A stretch of DNA of 59,265 bases from Planctomycetota bacterium. Its GTDB lineage: Bacteria; Planctomycetota; UBA1135. The notes beneath the pieces were generated by a model that was given only the letters and a program-made list of their open reading frames with translations, had not been told where the DNA came from and ran no database searches. The stretch covers positions 1 to 59,265 of the forward strand of contig JAAESM010000028.1 of the NCBI GenBank assembly GCA_024229395.1, in the 5' to 3' direction. The position numbers were made by a program, and so were the translations under genes. Numbering within the stretch: the stretch's first letter is position 1; each line of letters opens with the position of its first letter. Of the stretch, positions 25,905-40,265 are shown in pieces.

Positions 25905-28683
<2,779 letters not shown>

Positions 28684-28687
<4 letters not shown>

Positions 28688-29823
28688 ACTAGAGCGCTCA
28701 GTGGCATGACCACGTAGGTGTAATCATCGCCGAGCATGAACTTGGCCGGACGGGATGGATCGTCGATCTGTAATTCGATCTGCTCGGAGTGCGCAGCCTT
28801 CAAACCATCCAGCAGGAACGCTGGGTTGAAGGCGGTCTTCAAGCCGTCGCCGACGTAATCCACTTCGAAGTTCGCCGACGCGCGCCCGCGACCTTCGTGC
28901 TCGGAGGCGATCTCCAAGTTGTTTGATGACATGGCCAGGCGTACCACTGCAGCGGAATCCTGGGTCAAGTGACTGGCCAGCCGCAGCTTCTTGGTGAAGG
29001 ACTCACGATGCGCGTTGAGCACATGCTTGCCGCCTTGCGGAATCACGTTGGCGTAGTTCGGGTACTCGCCGGTCAACACGCGACCGAAGGACTCCAAGTT
29101 GCCGAGCTTGAAGCCGACCAGGTTACCGAGGAACCAGATTTGAATCTCGTTACCTTCCTCGTCTTGGCCGAATCGATAGATCTGATCGAGCACCTTCGGC
29201 AGCAAAACCGAACGTGACTTATTGCCCTTGCCGCCGGTGGTTGGGCGCTTGATGCAAGCCAAGCGACGACCATCGGTGCCGACCATAGTGGCTTGCCCCT
29301 CTGCCAGTTCGAGCAAGATGCCCTCGGTGGCGAAGCGTGTGTCTTGCACGCGCGACGTTGCGAAACGGGTGGAGTTGACCATCACAAGGAAATCGCCCTT
29401 GTCCATGGCGATATCGGCATCGCCGTCGAGGGTCGGCACCAATGGGAAACTCTCCGAATGCGCAGCAGCGGTATCGGAAGCACTGGATTCGAAGGTCACC
29501 AGCGCGCAGATGTCATCACCGGATTGGACCTCAACCTGGCCCTTCTCCTGCAAAGTCAACGTGACGGTGTCGGACTCCAGGTCCTTGATGATGTCGACAA
29601 GCTCGCGGCCTGGGATCACGGCCCAGCCAGGCTGATCCACCTGCACGAAGTCCACCCGATAACGAACGGCCATATCCAGGTCGTTGGTCATCAGAACCAC
29701 GCTGTCATTGGCGGCTTCGATGAGAATGCCTCCGTAAACGGGATTGGTCGGTTTGCGATCAATGCCCATTTCCACGCGCTGCAAAGCGTTGCGGAAGGCA
29801 AGACGGTCAATGAGGATTTTCAT
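28684..29823 (-). CDS. dnaN: DNA polymerase III beta sliding clamp
   Basis: A 379-residue clamp with the expected start MKILIDRLAFRNALQRVE and three repeated clamp domains. Middle- and C-terminal features include LLELAEGQATMVGTDGRRLA and KFMLGDDYTYVVMPL at the end, the region that contributes to the partner-binding pocket. ATG 29823 has no Shine-Dalgarno motif. It follows dnaA across the origin region and overlaps the DUF721 gene (ATGA). Confidence 0.97.
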
Positions 29824-29839
29824 GCGGGGCGGGTCTTCT

Positions 29840-30110
29840 TCTTAAAGGTAATGAATTAAGAATTAGTCGTAGTAGTATAGACGACGACTGATTGTGGAGA
29901 AAGCCAGAATGCCAGCTGTAACACACCTTGTTTAAGGGAGTTACAGAGGGCTGTTTGGATTTTGTTGGGGCCTAGGCCCTGTGCAATCCGCGGGAGTGCT
30001 TGTGGAAAGTTCTTGAGGTTCTCAACAGCCCCCAAAAGTGGCTTTTTGCTTTGTGGGAAAGTGTGGAAAACGCCACCCTTTTTGCCCTGCTCCTCCCCTG
30101 TTTTCCACAG
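29840..30110. other. oriC: Probable chromosomal origin oriC (DnaA boxes, DnaA-trio-like repeats, AT-rich zone)
   Basis: The dnaA-dnaN gap holds TGTGGAGAA (29894-29902), TGTGGAAAG (30001-30009), TGTGGGAAA (30052-30060), TGTGGAAAA (30062-30070) and TTTTCCACA (30101-30109). The last two fit the TTWTNCACA DnaA box exactly; the others differ at one position. Reading the minus strand from the box at 29902, a 13-base spacer is followed by CTATACTACTACGACTA. This places GAT-type triplets on the opposite strand (plus TAG-TCG-TAG-TAG at 29864-29875), then an AT-rich stretch to about 29840. This is the box-spacer-trio-unwinding order described for bacterial origins. Confidence 0.8.
29874..29879 (-). promoter_or_regulatory. 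Possible -10 element of a dnaN promoter
   Basis: The minus strand has TATACT, a good -10 hexamer, about 50 bases before the dnaN ATG. A -35 is poor (TTTCTC 17 bases upstream), and it would overlap the DnaA box at 29894-29902, which could give DnaA control. The same bases form part of the trio-like repeats, so the promoter reading is uncertain. Confidence 0.35.
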
Positions 30111-30123
30111 GTTTTCCAGGCCA

Positions 30124-30161
30124 AAAGAAAACCCCGTCCGCTCCAAAAGCGCACGGGGTTT
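30124..30161 (-). terminator. Intrinsic terminator of dnaA
   Basis: On the minus strand AAACCCCGT (30161-30153) pairs with ACGGGGTTT (30137-30129), a 9-bp stem with a 15-base loop, followed by TTTTCTTTT. It begins 18 bases past the dnaA stop at 30179, so dnaA transcription should end before the origin and dnaN must have its own promoter. Confidence 0.85.
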
Positions 30162-30178
30162 AGCGGACAAAAGCAAGA

Positions 30179-31603
30179 TCAACTGTTCCTGACTCGGCGT
30201 TCCAGGTCAGCCAAGAGGGAGGAGAAGTCACCATCGACACGACGACGTTTCTCCATCTTCTCAATGGCGTAGACAGCGGTGCTGTGATCGCGGCCACCGA
30301 AGTAGCCACCAATCTCTTCAAGCGACAGATCGGTCATGGAGCGCGCCAGGAACATCGCTACCTGACGTGGGTAGACAATGGACTTGGTGCGGCTCTTGGA
30401 CTGGAGGTCCGCAAGACGCACGCCAAAGTGCGTGATAATGACGGCGATGATGTCGTCCATGCGTACAACCCGGTTCAAGCGCGCGGTGCGCTCCGATCCC
30501 AGTGCCTGGCGCGCAAGCGGCAAGCTGATTGGCAAGTTGTGGAGCATGGCCAGTGCATGCAAGTGAGTGAGCGTGCCTTCCAGCTCGCGTACGTTGGAAT
30601 CGACATGCTCAGCAATGAAGTGGGCGATGTCATCCGGCAGGTCAATGCCGATGCGGTCCGCCTTGCGACGCATGATTGCGACTCGAGTCTCGAAACAGGG
30701 CGTTTCGATTTCTGCCACCAAACCCCACTTAAAGCGGCTTACGAGCCGTTCTTGCAAAGCTGGGATATCGCCCGGAGGGGCGTCGGAAGACAACACTATT
30801 TGCTTGTTCGCGTTGTGTAGCGCGTTAAAGGTGTGGAAGAATTCCTCTTGCGTGCGCTCTTTATTGGCAAGCAGTTGGATGTCATCGATGACCAGCACAT
30901 CGACATTCCGATAGCGTTCGCGGAAGTGCATGACGCTGCCTTGCCGAATGGAGCTGACAAAGTGATTGACGAACTCTTCACAAGACAGGAATGCAATCCG
31001 CACTGCAGGATTGTTCATGCGCAGACGGTGCGCGATGGATTGCATTAGGTGGGTCTTGCCTAGACCTACCGATCCATGCAAAAACAGCGGGTTAAAGGCA
31101 TCAGCAGGGCGATCAGCGACGCCATGAGAGGCGGCGTGGGCAAAGCGGTTGCACGGTCCAACGACGAAGTTGTCAAACTTGTATTCATCGTTGAGCAGCA
31201 GAGGTTCAGCTGTTGGGCACTCAGGCGCGGTGGGCTCCGCTTGCATGGCGGTATCCGGGGTGGATAACTCAGGCAAGACAGGAGCAGCGATGGCAGCATT
31301 GAGATCTTCAGGAGGGAGAATCTGCTCGATATCGAGCTCGTTCACCTCAAGATCACAGCTGGTCACCCCGAGGGCACCACAAATGTGAGCTAAGTGCCGA
31401 TCCCGAATACGCTCTTGGTGGAGCGAGGATGGGACGGAGAGCTTGGCGACGCCAGCATCAATGGCGACAAGTTCTGCTCCGCGCAGCCAGCCATCCACTT
31501 CGGCTGAGCCCAAACTTGCCTCCAGGGCGCACAAGGCGGCCTGCCAGGTTTGGGTCAAATTGTGGTTCAAGGGGGCTTGCACGTGAAAATTCGATGCCGA
31601 CAA
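30179..31603 (-). CDS. dnaA: Chromosomal replication initiator DnaA
   Basis: A 474-residue AAA+ initiator. N-terminal domain I, an acidic/Pro-rich linker (about 95-135), Walker A FLHGSVGLGKTHLMQSI at about 177-184, Walker B VLVIDDIQLL, and the C-terminal DNA-binding domain with YPRQVAMFLARSMTDLSL and GGRDHSTAVYAIEK. The usual GG of Walker A is GS here. TTG 31603 is the likely start: AAGGGG lies seven bases upstream. Its promoter region (31604-31727) holds TTATCAACA, a near-consensus DnaA box, suggesting autoregulation. Confidence 0.96.
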   Translation of the reverse strand: MSASNFHVQAPLNHNLTQTWQAALCALEASLGSAEVDGWLRGAELVAIDAGVAKLSVPSSLHQERIRDRHLAHICGALGVTSCDLEVNELDIEQILPPEDLNAAIAAPVLPELSTPDTAMQAEPTAPECPTAEPLLLNDEYKFDNFVVGPCNRFAHAASHGVADRPADAFNPLFLHGSVGLGKTHLMQSIAHRLRMNNPAVRIAFLSCEEFVNHFVSSIRQGSVMHFRERYRNVDVLVIDDIQLLANKERTQEEFFHTFNALHNANKQIVLSSDAPPGDIPALQERLVSRFKWGLVAEIETPCFETRVAIMRRKADRIGIDLPDDIAHFIAEHVDSNVRELEGTLTHLHALAMLHNLPISLPLARQALGSERTARLNRVVRMDDIIAVIITHFGVRLADLQSKSRTKSIVYPRQVAMFLARSMTDLSLEEIGGYFGGRDHSTAVYAIEKMEKRRRVDGDFSSLLADLERRVRNS

Positions 31604-31727: not shown

Positions 31728-32960
31728 CTAACGATTTGCGACTTCGTAAAGGCGCAGAAGCAACTTGGAAAGCTGTTGAGCGAGCAACGGCAGCTCAGAG
31801 AGCTCAAAATCGGGCCCAAAACTGAGCCTACAGGTGGCCATTGCTGTCTTCTCATCTAAGCCGGCAGCCAATAACACCGGCGACGCCTGTGCCGCACCCG
31901 AGGAGCAGGCAGAGCCGGCCGACGCTTCGATCCCCTCGGCATCTAATGCTGGGATCAACAAGCGACCATCCAATCCGGGGAAAGAAAGGTTCAGTGTATT
32001 AGGTAGAGATTCCTGGAATCCTTCATGCTGGTTCTGCGTGAATGGGATTTTCTCGGAGGAGAAATGATGAAGCAATCCTTCACAACAACGACGACTTCGT
32101 GCGGCGAAATCCTGTTGCTCCGCCAGCGCCAGCTTCAGCGCCAGCGCCAAACTTGCCGCCAAAGCCGGCGACTCGGTTCCCGACCTTCGGTTGTATTGTT
32201 GACCACCCCCGACTTGCAGCGGTGAGATCATTGCGGATTCGGTAGCGCGCAAAACACCAACACCCTTTGGCGCTCCAAATTTATGGCCCGATAAGGACAT
32301 CGTGGTTGCGGAAGTTAAGGCTGGCAACCATGGCAGCTTGCCGAAACCTTGCGCAGCATCCACATGCCAACTGTGATTAAAGTCTGTTGCGGTGGCGAGT
32401 TGCTCCAGTGGTTGCACCGTACCGGTTTCATTGTTCGCCCACTGCACCACACTCAAGGTGTGAGGGTGTTGCGCGATTGCATCCAATACCGCGGACATGT
32501 CAATGCCCGCAAAGCGATCGATCTCTACTAGATTCAAGTTGAAACCTTGCTGCTGCAACTTCTTCAATGGCGCCAAAGCTGCTGGATGCTCTGCGCGTGA
32601 AGCAATCAAAAGAGGCTTTTCCGCTTTAAATTCAGCCATTGCCGACGCCATTCCCAAAATCGCCAAGTTGTTTGCTTCTGTAGCACCACTGGTGAAGATG
32701 ATGTCGCGCGACGCGCAAGCCAAACACTCTGCGACTTCATCGCGGGCGTTCTCCAACACGGCTTGTGCGTGACGGCCACTGCGATGGATTGCAGCGGGGT
32801 TGCCGCGTGTATCACGCTCCACCGCCACGAAGAGTTCAAGGACTTCGGGGCGTACGCCTAATCCGGCGTTCGCATCGAGGTGAAACCTATTCAGCTTCTC
32901 TTTCCAAAAGTGGCTCCGGCTTTGGAGCGACGACTTCGGCGGCCACGACAGGAGGTGCAA
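31728..32960 (-). CDS. NifS/IscS-type cysteine desulfurase
   Basis: A PLP enzyme of up to 410 residues that takes sulfur from cysteine for Fe-S clusters or thio-modified tRNA. Motifs: FTSGATEANNLAILG, the NETGTVQP loop, HVDAAQGFGKLPW, the PLP-binding SLSGHKFGAPKGVG, and the persulfide loop GSACSSGAAQ. The start is unclear. ATG 32960 gives an N-terminal extension that overlaps parA by 74 bases, while homologs usually begin close to RFHLDANAG. A CTG at 32897, next to the parA stop, is possible. No IscU or other isc/suf gene is adjacent. Confidence 0.9.
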   Translation of the reverse strand: MHLLSWPPKSSLQSRSHFWKEKLNRFHLDANAGLGVRPEVLELFVAVERDTRGNPAAIHRSGRHAQAVLENARDEVAECLACASRDIIFTSGATEANNLAILGMASAMAEFKAEKPLLIASRAEHPAALAPLKKLQQQGFNLNLVEIDRFAGIDMSAVLDAIAQHPHTLSVVQWANNETGTVQPLEQLATATDFNHSWHVDAAQGFGKLPWLPALTSATTMSLSGHKFGAPKGVGVLRATESAMISPLQVGGGQQYNRRSGTESPALAASLALALKLALAEQQDFAARSRRCCEGLLHHFSSEKIPFTQNQHEGFQESLPNTLNLSFPGLDGRLLIPALDAEGIEASAGSACSSGAAQASPVLLAAGLDEKTAMATCRLSFGPDFELSELPLLAQQLSKLLLRLYEVANR

Positions 32961-33816
32961 TGTTCGTGGCTACGACTTCTTCCGTGGCGACAGGCGCTGG
33001 CGCATCTGCTAGAGGAGGTGTTGCTCCACCTTTTTCCTCACATGCCAAGCCAATACGCATGGCCAATTCTGCGGCGATCTCGCGGAACTGATCCGCGGCA
33101 GTGCTGTCCGGCGCGTACTCGAAGATCGTCTGTCCGTGACTCGGAGCCTCGGCCAAGCGTACATTCACGCGCACCTGCGTCGGGAAGACGAGCTCACCGA
33201 AATGATGATTCAATTCCTCAACGACTTCGCGCGACAGATTGCGTTGTTTGCTGAACAGGCCTACCAGGATTCCAGCCAACTCGATCCTTGGATTAAGACG
33301 ACGCTTGACGCGTTCGAGCACGTCGAGCAATTGAGCCATGCCCTGGAGGGCGAAGAATTCAGCCTGTAGTGGCACGATGACGAAGTCCGAGGCCACCAAT
33401 GCATTCAGGGACAGGGTGCCCAAAGATGGAGGGCAATCGAGCAGCACCAGGTCCGGCGCGTTCTCGGAGCGGGCCAAGTCATTCAAGGCCAAGCGCAAGA
33501 TGCCTTCGCGACCGATCTCGTTGGAGAGTTCACTCTCCGCACCGGTTAGGTCAAGGTTGGTCGGAGCAATCGAGAGCCCCTCGGTTTGAGTGGGCTGGCT
33601 GACGTCGGCGAAAGCGTGACCCTGGGTGAGCAAGGTATAAACCGACGGATCGCCTGGCTCGGGCATCCGGTCAAAGCTAATCGATAGGTGAGCTTGCGGA
33701 TCAAGATCGACCAGCAACACCCGAAGGCCCTGCTGCGCCAAAGCGGCGCCGATATTGGCGCACGAGGTGGTCTTACCTACCCCACCTTTTTGATTGATGA
33801 TTGAAAGGACCTGCAC
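32887..33816 (-). CDS. parA: Chromosome partitioning ATPase ParA/Soj
   Basis: A 309-residue Walker-type ATPase. Deviant Walker A KGGVGKTTSCANIGAALA near the N-terminus, RVLLVDLDPQAHLS, and the ADP/DNA region LLDCPPSLGTLSLNAL are diagnostic. A 50-residue Ala/Pro/Val-rich tail follows the ATPase domain, unusual for Soj. Unlike most chromosomes, parB is not next to it but about 5.5 kb to the right on the other strand. Confidence 0.95.
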   Translation of the reverse strand: MQVLSIINQKGGVGKTTSCANIGAALAQQGLRVLLVDLDPQAHLSISFDRMPEPGDPSVYTLLTQGHAFADVSQPTQTEGLSIAPTNLDLTGAESELSNEIGREGILRLALNDLARSENAPDLVLLDCPPSLGTLSLNALVASDFVIVPLQAEFFALQGMAQLLDVLERVKRRLNPRIELAGILVGLFSKQRNLSREVVEELNHHFGELVFPTQVRVNVRLAEAPSHGQTIFEYAPDSTAADQFREIAAELAMRIGLACEEKGGATPPLADAPAPVATEEVVATNIAPPVVAAEVVAPKPEPLLEREAE

Positions 33817-39362: not shown

Positions 39363-40265
39363 ATGGTTAATCCGTCATCAAAACGCCTCGGCAAGGGCAT
39401 CGGCTCCTTGCTTTCTAATCGTCACGCCACCGATGTTGAGGGCAGCGAAGGCAAATTGTGGGTTTCCCGCGAATTATTGACCCCCAACAGCGAGCAGCCA
39501 CGTGTCGCCGTAGACAAAGGTGTTGAAAGGCTCGCTGAGTCACTTCGGCGCCATGGAATGATGCAGCCGATCGTGGTCACGGTTCAAAGCGATGGTAGCT
39601 ATGAAATCCTGGCTGGGGAACGTCGTTGGCGCGCGTCTGAGCTGGCGGGCATGAAGAGCGTGCCGATTATCGTTCGCGAAGGCTCGCTTTCTGGAGACGA
39701 GAAGCTGGAGCTTGCCCTGATTGAAAATATTCAGCGTGAAGACCTGGATTCGATTGAAAAAGCCAAGGGCTGCGCCCGCCTGATGTCGGAATACAACCTG
39801 ACCCAGGAAGATGTCGCAGCCAAGCTGGGCTACCAACGCTCCACGGTGGCGAACCTGGTGCGACTCCTGGACCTCCCAGTGGAGATTCAAGACGATGTTT
39901 CACGTGAAACAATTACCGCAGGGCATGCGCGGGCGCTCCTCAAGCTCCAGGACACGCCCCTGCAAGCCCAGGCCTGGCAGGAGATTAAGGCAGGTGAAGT
40001 GTCAGTTCGGGGGGCTGAGAAGCTATGCGCCAGCCTAGCGAAGGGTGGGCGCGAGCCAAAGCACATGCCCAGGGCCTCCAAGCCGGCATGGGCGGCCGAG
40101 CTTCAAGATAAGCTCACAAGAAGCCTGGGCTTGCGTGCGGAGATCAAGCTGCATGCCCGTGGCGGCGGCAAGTTGGTCCTTCACTTTGCTGAGCTGGACG
40201 ACCTAGATCGTCTTGTTCGGGAGGTGGACATGCCTAGCGAGCTCGAAGAGTTGATGCAGGACTAA
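39363..40265 (+). CDS. parB: Chromosome partitioning protein ParB/Spo0J
   Basis: A 300-residue CTPase/DNA-binding protein that loads on parS and spreads. Box I EILAGERRWRASELAGM, box II ENIQREDLDSIEKAKGCARL, and the helix-turn-helix LTQEDVAAKLGYQRSTVANL are clear. The C-terminal dimerisation domain follows a basic linker. ATG 39363; no Shine-Dalgarno motif. The coding sequence contains a perfect parS at 39896-39911. parA lies on the other strand. Confidence 0.96.
   Translation: MVNPSSKRLGKGIGSLLSNRHATDVEGSEGKLWVSRELLTPNSEQPRVAVDKGVERLAESLRRHGMMQPIVVTVQSDGSYEILAGERRWRASELAGMKSVPIIVREGSLSGDEKLELALIENIQREDLDSIEKAKGCARLMSEYNLTQEDVAAKLGYQRSTVANLVRLLDLPVEIQDDVSRETITAGHARALLKLQDTPLQAQAWQEIKAGEVSVRGAEKLCASLAKGGREPKHMPRASKPAWAAELQDKLTRSLGLRAEIKLHARGGGKLVLHFAELDDLDRLVREVDMPSELEELMQD
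39896..39911. promoter_or_regulatory. parS centromere site inside parB
   Basis: The sequence TGTTTCACGTGAAACA is the perfect 16-base palindromic parS of chromosomal ParB systems. It is read in parB as codons for VSRET. It lies about 9.8 kb to the right of the origin candidate, a typical distance. I found no second perfect copy in the window. Confidence 0.97.

Follow-up and report, generated by a model that had tools for sequence, protein, structure and literature searches.

Predicted DnaA-trio unwinding module with adenine or cytosine as the middle base in planctomycete origins

In a draft planctomycete genome, dnaA and dnaN are separated by a gap that contains a DnaA box, then a 14-nt spacer and a trio array. 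Their layout is conserved order-wide, and we are fairly confident that together they represent a predicted unwinding module in which DnaA would capture A or C as the middle base of each trio. The presence of such a module is not in itself new. A sequence-only reading of this DNA had considered the arrangement to be known mainly from firmicutes, a view that is out of date, since the portion of PMC8287927 covered here predicts a basal unwinding system (BUS) in 1755 of 2070 species (85%) and describes tests with cognate DnaA for Helicobacter pylori, Synechococcus elongatus and Deinococcus radiodurans. The news is a trio code with A or C in the middle. For this lineage the code appears to be 3′-N(A/C)T-5′, with A and C interchanging and G and T nearly excluded.

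Layout of the dnaA-dnaN gap

The window, that is, the whole stretch of DNA analysed, is a complete contig of 59,265 bp, one of 93 in a draft assembly of 3,125,658 bases that is 87% complete. On its minus strand, dnaA, a 355-bp gap, dnaN, a dciA-like gene and gyrB follow one another. The genes flanking the gap, the DnaA boxes within it and the parts of the putative module are as follows.

30179..31603, minus strand: dnaA, 474 aa, TTG start as listed (TIGR00362, 466 bits)
29824..30178, no strand: dnaA-dnaN gap, 355 bp, predicted origin
28684..29823, minus strand: dnaN (TIGR00663, 219 bits)
28355..28687, minus strand: dciA-like gene (PF05258, 2.3e-11), predicted helicase-loading partner
30101..30109, plus strand: DnaA box TTTTCCACA, exact match to TTWTNCACA
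30062..30070, minus strand: DnaA box TTTTCCACA, exact match to TTWTNCACA
30052..30060, minus strand: weak DnaA box TTTCCCACA, two mismatches
30019..30027, plus strand: weak DnaA box TTCTCAACA, two mismatches
30001..30009, minus strand: weak DnaA box CTTTCCACA, two mismatches
29893..29901, minus strand: DnaA box TTCTCCACA, one mismatch to TTATCCACA, anchor of the trio array
29879..29892, minus strand: GC-rich spacer, 14 nt
29864..29878, minus strand: array of five trios, displayed as ATA CTA CTA CGA CTA
29867..29869, plus strand: cytosine trio 5′-TCG-3′, that is 3′-GCT-5′, displayed as CGA
29839..29863, no strand: AT-rich stretch past the array

The plus strand, 3′-TAT GAT GAT GCT GAT-5′, is the one that DnaA is predicted to bind. 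The sequence-only reading had placed a box, a spacer, trios and AT-rich DNA in this order on the minus strand, and all four are present, with an AT content of 72% over 29841-29880. Several of its particulars require correction. It counted three near matches beside the two exact TTWTNCACA boxes, but there are four (at 29893, 30001, 30019 and 30052, with one or two mismatches). The box next to the trios, correctly assigned to the minus strand, lies at 29893-29901 and not one base further on at 29894-29902, and it is not a TTWTNCACA site. The reported 13-base spacer is the distance from this box to TATACT; it is 12 nt to CTATACT and 14 nt to the in-register array. Neither the CGA trio, which puts cytosine on the trio strand and is of the type that dominates in relatives, nor a conserved upstream element described below was mentioned.

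In the text covered, PMC8287927 defines a BUS by a box with at most two mismatches, a spacer of 0-16 nt and at least three contiguous 3′-NAN-5′ trios. By these published rules the window itself qualifies: TTCTCCACA at 29893-29901 is within two mismatches of TTATCCACA, the spacer of 14 nt is in range, and three contiguous NAN trios (ATA CTA CTA as displayed) precede CGA CTA. The most frequent BUS form, at 57%, has a second DnaA box in tandem, which according to the same portion of that paper is not obligatory. None of the 23 family gaps has a tandem second box beside the anchor box, and among 40 order loci we found one downstream and one upstream, with up to three mismatches allowed. The pattern TCCACA-N14-16-(KAN)KA has a single occurrence in the assembly (3.1 Mb), spanning 29867-29898; its reversed control has none. 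Across 26 family genomes the same box-spacer-array pattern gives 17 matches, 10 of them at the dnaA-dnaN gap; outside the gap it is at background, since the reversed control gives 11. As a separate feature, the spacer and array at 29861-29893 constitute an imperfect inverted repeat with 13-nt arms (85%) that could form a hairpin on the melted strand, the RNA fold of 29861-29873 with 29881-29893 giving −6.6 kcal/mol (z −2.64).

Conservation of the array and choice of its middle base

Comparison with relatives was based on two sets of loci. For the family, 26 genomes were searched, of which 25 yielded dnaA and 23 a dnaA-dnaN gap. For the order, 91 loci were fetched (L111-L201), 16 without a dnaA-dnaN gap were dropped and 75 were kept; one genome (G121) contributes two loci, three dropped loci are family genomes, and the loci are mutually related. 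Sampling at the level of the class drew 121 genomes, all within the same order, and added nothing. A first trio scan, with a 3′-GAT-weighted score and 40 shuffles per gap, was rejected: shuffles often lack a box, so that poor arrays reach p values near 0, and the score takes the middle base for granted. In its place we used a strict scan, blind to the middle base, that demands a box with at most two mismatches, followed after 10-17 nt of spacer by five triplets of which at least four have A as third base.

From box to array, the alignment of the 23 family gaps is free of indels, save for a 12-nt spacer in L100; four letters of the box (T, C, C and C) never vary. By the strict scan, arrays are present in 17 of the 23 family loci (7.1% in shuffles) and in 43 of the 75 other order loci (1.9% in shuffles), and all 60 lie on the dnaA-to-dnaN strand. 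Real sequence served as a further control, flanking genes yielding 13 arrays in 301,673 bp as against 60 in 53,552 bp of gaps. The AT content of the 25 nt past the array is 74% versus 49% for the gap in the family, and 56% versus 37% in the order. The strict rule detects no array in 32 of the 75 order loci, many of which show one by eye behind a weaker box; arrays of family f5 are mostly unconvincing, and 3 of the 43 order arrays, located more than 200 nt from dnaN, may be due to chance. Other planctomycete families were represented by 40 loci; a dnaA-dnaN gap is present in 29, and 13 of these have arrays (5.5% in shuffles). Five order loci (L112, L113, L120, L139 and L153) share the near-identical block CTATTAAGACGAAGATATCA, or a variant of it, some 260-290 nt from dnaN; no good box precedes the block, making it an array whose anchor is unusual.

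The middle base of the trios is sharply restricted. As displayed, it is T in 53, G in 23 and C in 2 family trios, and G in 127, T in 59, C in 9 and A in 3 order trios. Read on the trio strand, A or C (keto as displayed) thus occupies the middle in 76/78 and 186/198 cases, respectively (shuffles, 36% and 44%), and every scored middle base is A or C in 35 of 43 order loci. Keto middles account for 263/275 in gaps versus 17/53 in flanking genes. Because the first base of the order arrays is keto in 95/198, the restriction is limited to the middle position. Other planctomycete families have keto middles in 48/56 (shuffles, 46%), and since some of these arrays belong to genomes of low G+C, composition is not the whole cause of the bias. 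Within the family, trios of both the adenine and the cytosine type occur. Elsewhere in the order the middle base is more often C than A, and most trios are of the cytosine type 3′-NCT-5′, displayed as AGA, TGA and CGA. Adenine rules in firmicute-like arrays: of 40 named loci, grouped by record titles, 37 have arrays, with displayed middle bases T 146, G 10, C 8 and A 4.

How the two letters exchange was followed in 63 loci, comprising the 23 family loci (TATAMT-anchored) and 40 order arrays no more than 200 nt from dnaN; the DnaN tree covers 61 of them. On this tree the five middle positions undergo 51 changes, 10 of which cross between keto and amino, compared with 52 of 81 at first positions. 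Third positions change 26 times, 4 times across purine and pyrimidine and mostly by A-G transitions. Nearly all middle changes are T-G exchanges on the displayed strand, and as a T-G exchange is a transversion, the pattern is not that of usual drift. The share of cytosine rises with the G+C content of surrounding genes (Spearman 0.68, n=63; 0.60 within the family and 0.58 outside), a trend that holds for independent contrasts (r=0.53, p=1.2e-5).

These data bear on whether the loci are simply ordinary BUS elements with 3′-NAN-5′ trios, in which CGA, AGA and TGA are degenerate, non-functional trios and the middle bias comes from purine-rich or GA-rich sequence. That the window itself obeys the published rule, that PMC8287927, in the part covered, calls the motif degenerate, and that arrays in family members of low G+C consist of CTA only all speak for this account, which we nevertheless judge improbable. 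In our own coding, as distinct from the authors' program, and with the chosen box, the NAN rule (at least three contiguous trios within 16 nt) fails at 43 of 63 sites and is passed at 20, at only 12 of them in the register of the array. The same arrays, moreover, are free at first positions, and they change by transversion in the middle and mostly by transition at the third position. In a different register, TGA repeats also give NAN trios.

Promoter, upstream element and origin context

Four further elements lie in or near the gap.

30129..30161, minus strand: terminator-like hairpin, then TTTTCTTTT, just after dnaA; 14-nt arms, 93% complementary
29874..29879, minus strand: TATACT, conserved in family gaps as TATAMT; shares bases with trios one and two and may be the −10 of dnaN
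29917..29945, no strand: dyad TGTAAC-N17-GTTACA upstream of the anchor box, present nowhere else in the assembly, with an AA...TT core conserved order-wide
39896..39911, plus strand: exact parS within parB; even with two mismatches allowed, the assembly has no other

TATACT raises the question of whether the stretch from box to array is mainly a dnaN promoter, with this hexamer as the −10, the box as an operator for DnaA control and the trinucleotide appearance incidental. The hexamer TATAMT (or TACAAT) occurs in 23/23 family gaps, 13 nt after the box (12 in L100), in an alignment anchored on it, and 7 of 40 order arrays hold a 5/6 match to TATAAT, as against 0.65% in shuffled gaps. A promoter of its own is also needed by dnaN because the terminator-like hairpin separates it from dnaA. 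The terminator proposed in the sequence-only reading fits this hairpin and TTTTCTTTT on the minus strand, and the predicted fold reaches −24.5 kcal/mol (z −2.58), but a consensus terminator scanner does not list 30129-30161. What a promoter fails to explain is the array, because 33 of the 40 arrays outside the family have no −10-like hexamer, yet retain box, spacer and array. It does not predict the middle-base restriction across five trios either, and no −35 or full promoter is listed on the minus strand of the window gap. We therefore consider a stretch serving chiefly as promoter unlikely, while promoter and trio functions may share one site.

Upstream of the box, the AA...TT element keeps a nearly fixed distance, as AA-N19-TT, to the trio-anchoring box across the order. 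Counted from the box start, the family has A in 23/23 and 22/23 at −41 and −40 and T in 23/23 and 18/23 at −20 and −19; the corresponding figures for the order are A in 32/40 and 27/40 at −42 and −41 and T in 28/40 and 33/40 at −21 and −20. A dyad test in the family gave 82/138 paired cells versus 72.9 by permutation (p 0.0095, with the best axis pre-picked from the same data). Over all 63 loci the dyad reading fails (p 0.29), and we claim only the AA...TT core. The element could be the site of a putative origin-binding dimer.

The surroundings are those expected of a chromosomal origin, the cluster of DnaA boxes adjoining dnaA and dnaN with parS nearby, 10 kb from the gap. Both parB (39363-40265) and a ParA-like gene (32887-33816) lie to the right of dnaA; the latter, 6 kb from parB and on the opposite strand, does not adjoin it. 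A GC-skew switch had been anticipated near 29.9 kb, and the cumulative skew of the contig is lowest at 28,510; in a single-contig relative (G078), 20 sampled stretches of 20 kb gave no clear switch near dnaA. Order-wide conservation and the sole parS 10 kb away make it well supported that the gap is a predicted origin with a DnaA box, spacer, trios and AT-rich DNA. That the boxes and repeats serve dnaA autoregulation only, with replication starting elsewhere, might be suggested by the skew of G078 and the 93-contig draft state of the genome itself, but is very unlikely given the dnaA-dnaN-dciA-gyrB order, the density of boxes in gaps (433 in 53,552 bp versus 397 in 301,673 bp of flanks), the nearby parS and the skew minimum of the contig.

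The DnaA pocket and comparison with known systems

A structural rationale for two interchangeable middle bases is available from the B. subtilis structure 8BTG. In the part of PMC10721633 covered, adjacent DnaA molecules hold the first and second base of a trio between them, and Asn187 is contacted by the amine of the middle adenine. Cytosine likewise bears an amine and supports a similar rate of strand separation, and in vivo initiation was more frequent in mutants with cytosine than in those with G or T. When the window DnaA is aligned to 8btg, the ISM pocket residues E183, N187, R202 and E228 (B. subtilis numbering) are kept, with I190 replaced by Val and N196 by Gly. N187 is kept in 22/22 readable family proteins and in 10/10 order proteins (L111-L120), which rules out its loss as the cause of cytosine trios. 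As the residue is kept in the family and order proteins read, adenine and cytosine are very likely both read by one and the same pocket. Other planctomycete classes may differ, N187 being kept in only 5 of nine named planctomycete loci. The DnaA proteins of L018, L029, L038, L044 and L051 (Phycisphaerae-type and others) have Thr or Asp at the Asn187 site and Met or His at 190, and trio reading in these may differ altogether. Many genomes of the phylum give two DnaA-like matches, suggesting a second DnaA paralog.

In the sequence of events that we envisage, a DnaA oligomer would grow from the box at 29893-29901 along the plus strand, taking hold of the middle base in each trio, with A or C probably being accepted because both carry an amine. 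The melted AT-rich stretch past the array would then receive the helicase, with loading likely aided by the DciA-like protein encoded after dnaN. Beyond this locus, we think it somewhat probable that DnaA reads an amine and not adenine as such: planctomycete origins would be opened through 3′-N(A/C)T-5′ trios with cytosine as the default, the trio code would allow either of two letters at the centre, and some of the seemingly trio-less origins would carry cytosine trios. Such origins exist according to the text of PMC8287927 covered here, which finds no trios in 15% of origins and suspects deviant trios lacking the middle adenine. To judge from their sequences, planctomycete origins look like a natural occurrence of these. 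The A-to-C result in PMC10721633 is taken, in the part covered, to suggest that DnaA proteins elsewhere might recognise various sequences. DnaA-trio and cytosine are both mentioned in the covered parts of PMC10721633 and PMC13220808, a 2026 review still gives the motif as NAN in the portion covered, and our literature search found no paper on both Planctomycetes and DnaA-trio. With planctomycete origins, the capture of bases by way of an amine can be tested comparatively, their trios correct the NAN rule used for finding origins, and their box-spacer-array sequences are scaffolds for direct assay.

The Bacillus subtilis oriC was reportedly described by Richardson in 2016 with DnaA-boxes 6/7, a GC-rich gap and DnaA-trios. 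As far as PMC8287927 and PMC10721633 were covered, the module described here resembles the B. subtilis BUS in having a box, a GC-rich spacer and a trinucleotide array on the same relative strand with AT-rich DNA beyond, in its placement between dnaA and dnaN, and in the pocket residues E183, N187, R202 and E228. It differs in admitting A or C in the middle instead of A, in a strongly kept T as third base, in a single box without a tandem second and in Gly at the position of Asn196. With the BUS elements of H. pylori, S. elongatus and D. radiodurans (PMC8287927, in part) it shares occurrence outside firmicutes; the Gram-negative BUS elements of that paper, demonstrated with cognate DnaA, were predicted by the NAN rule, and no cytosine-centred trio appears in the text covered. 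Thermotoga maritima, with the extended trio described in the part of PMC10316083 covered, likewise has a variant layout of trio repeats in its unwinding element, but there the repeats are TAG, with a central A and a different distance from the boxes. The closest parallel to the middle base is provided by the engineered A-to-C trios of B. subtilis (PMC10721633, in the part covered), in which a central cytosine permits strand separation and, for initiation, does better than G or T. There the exchange was a laboratory substitution, whereas here the same exchange is present in natural origins across an order.
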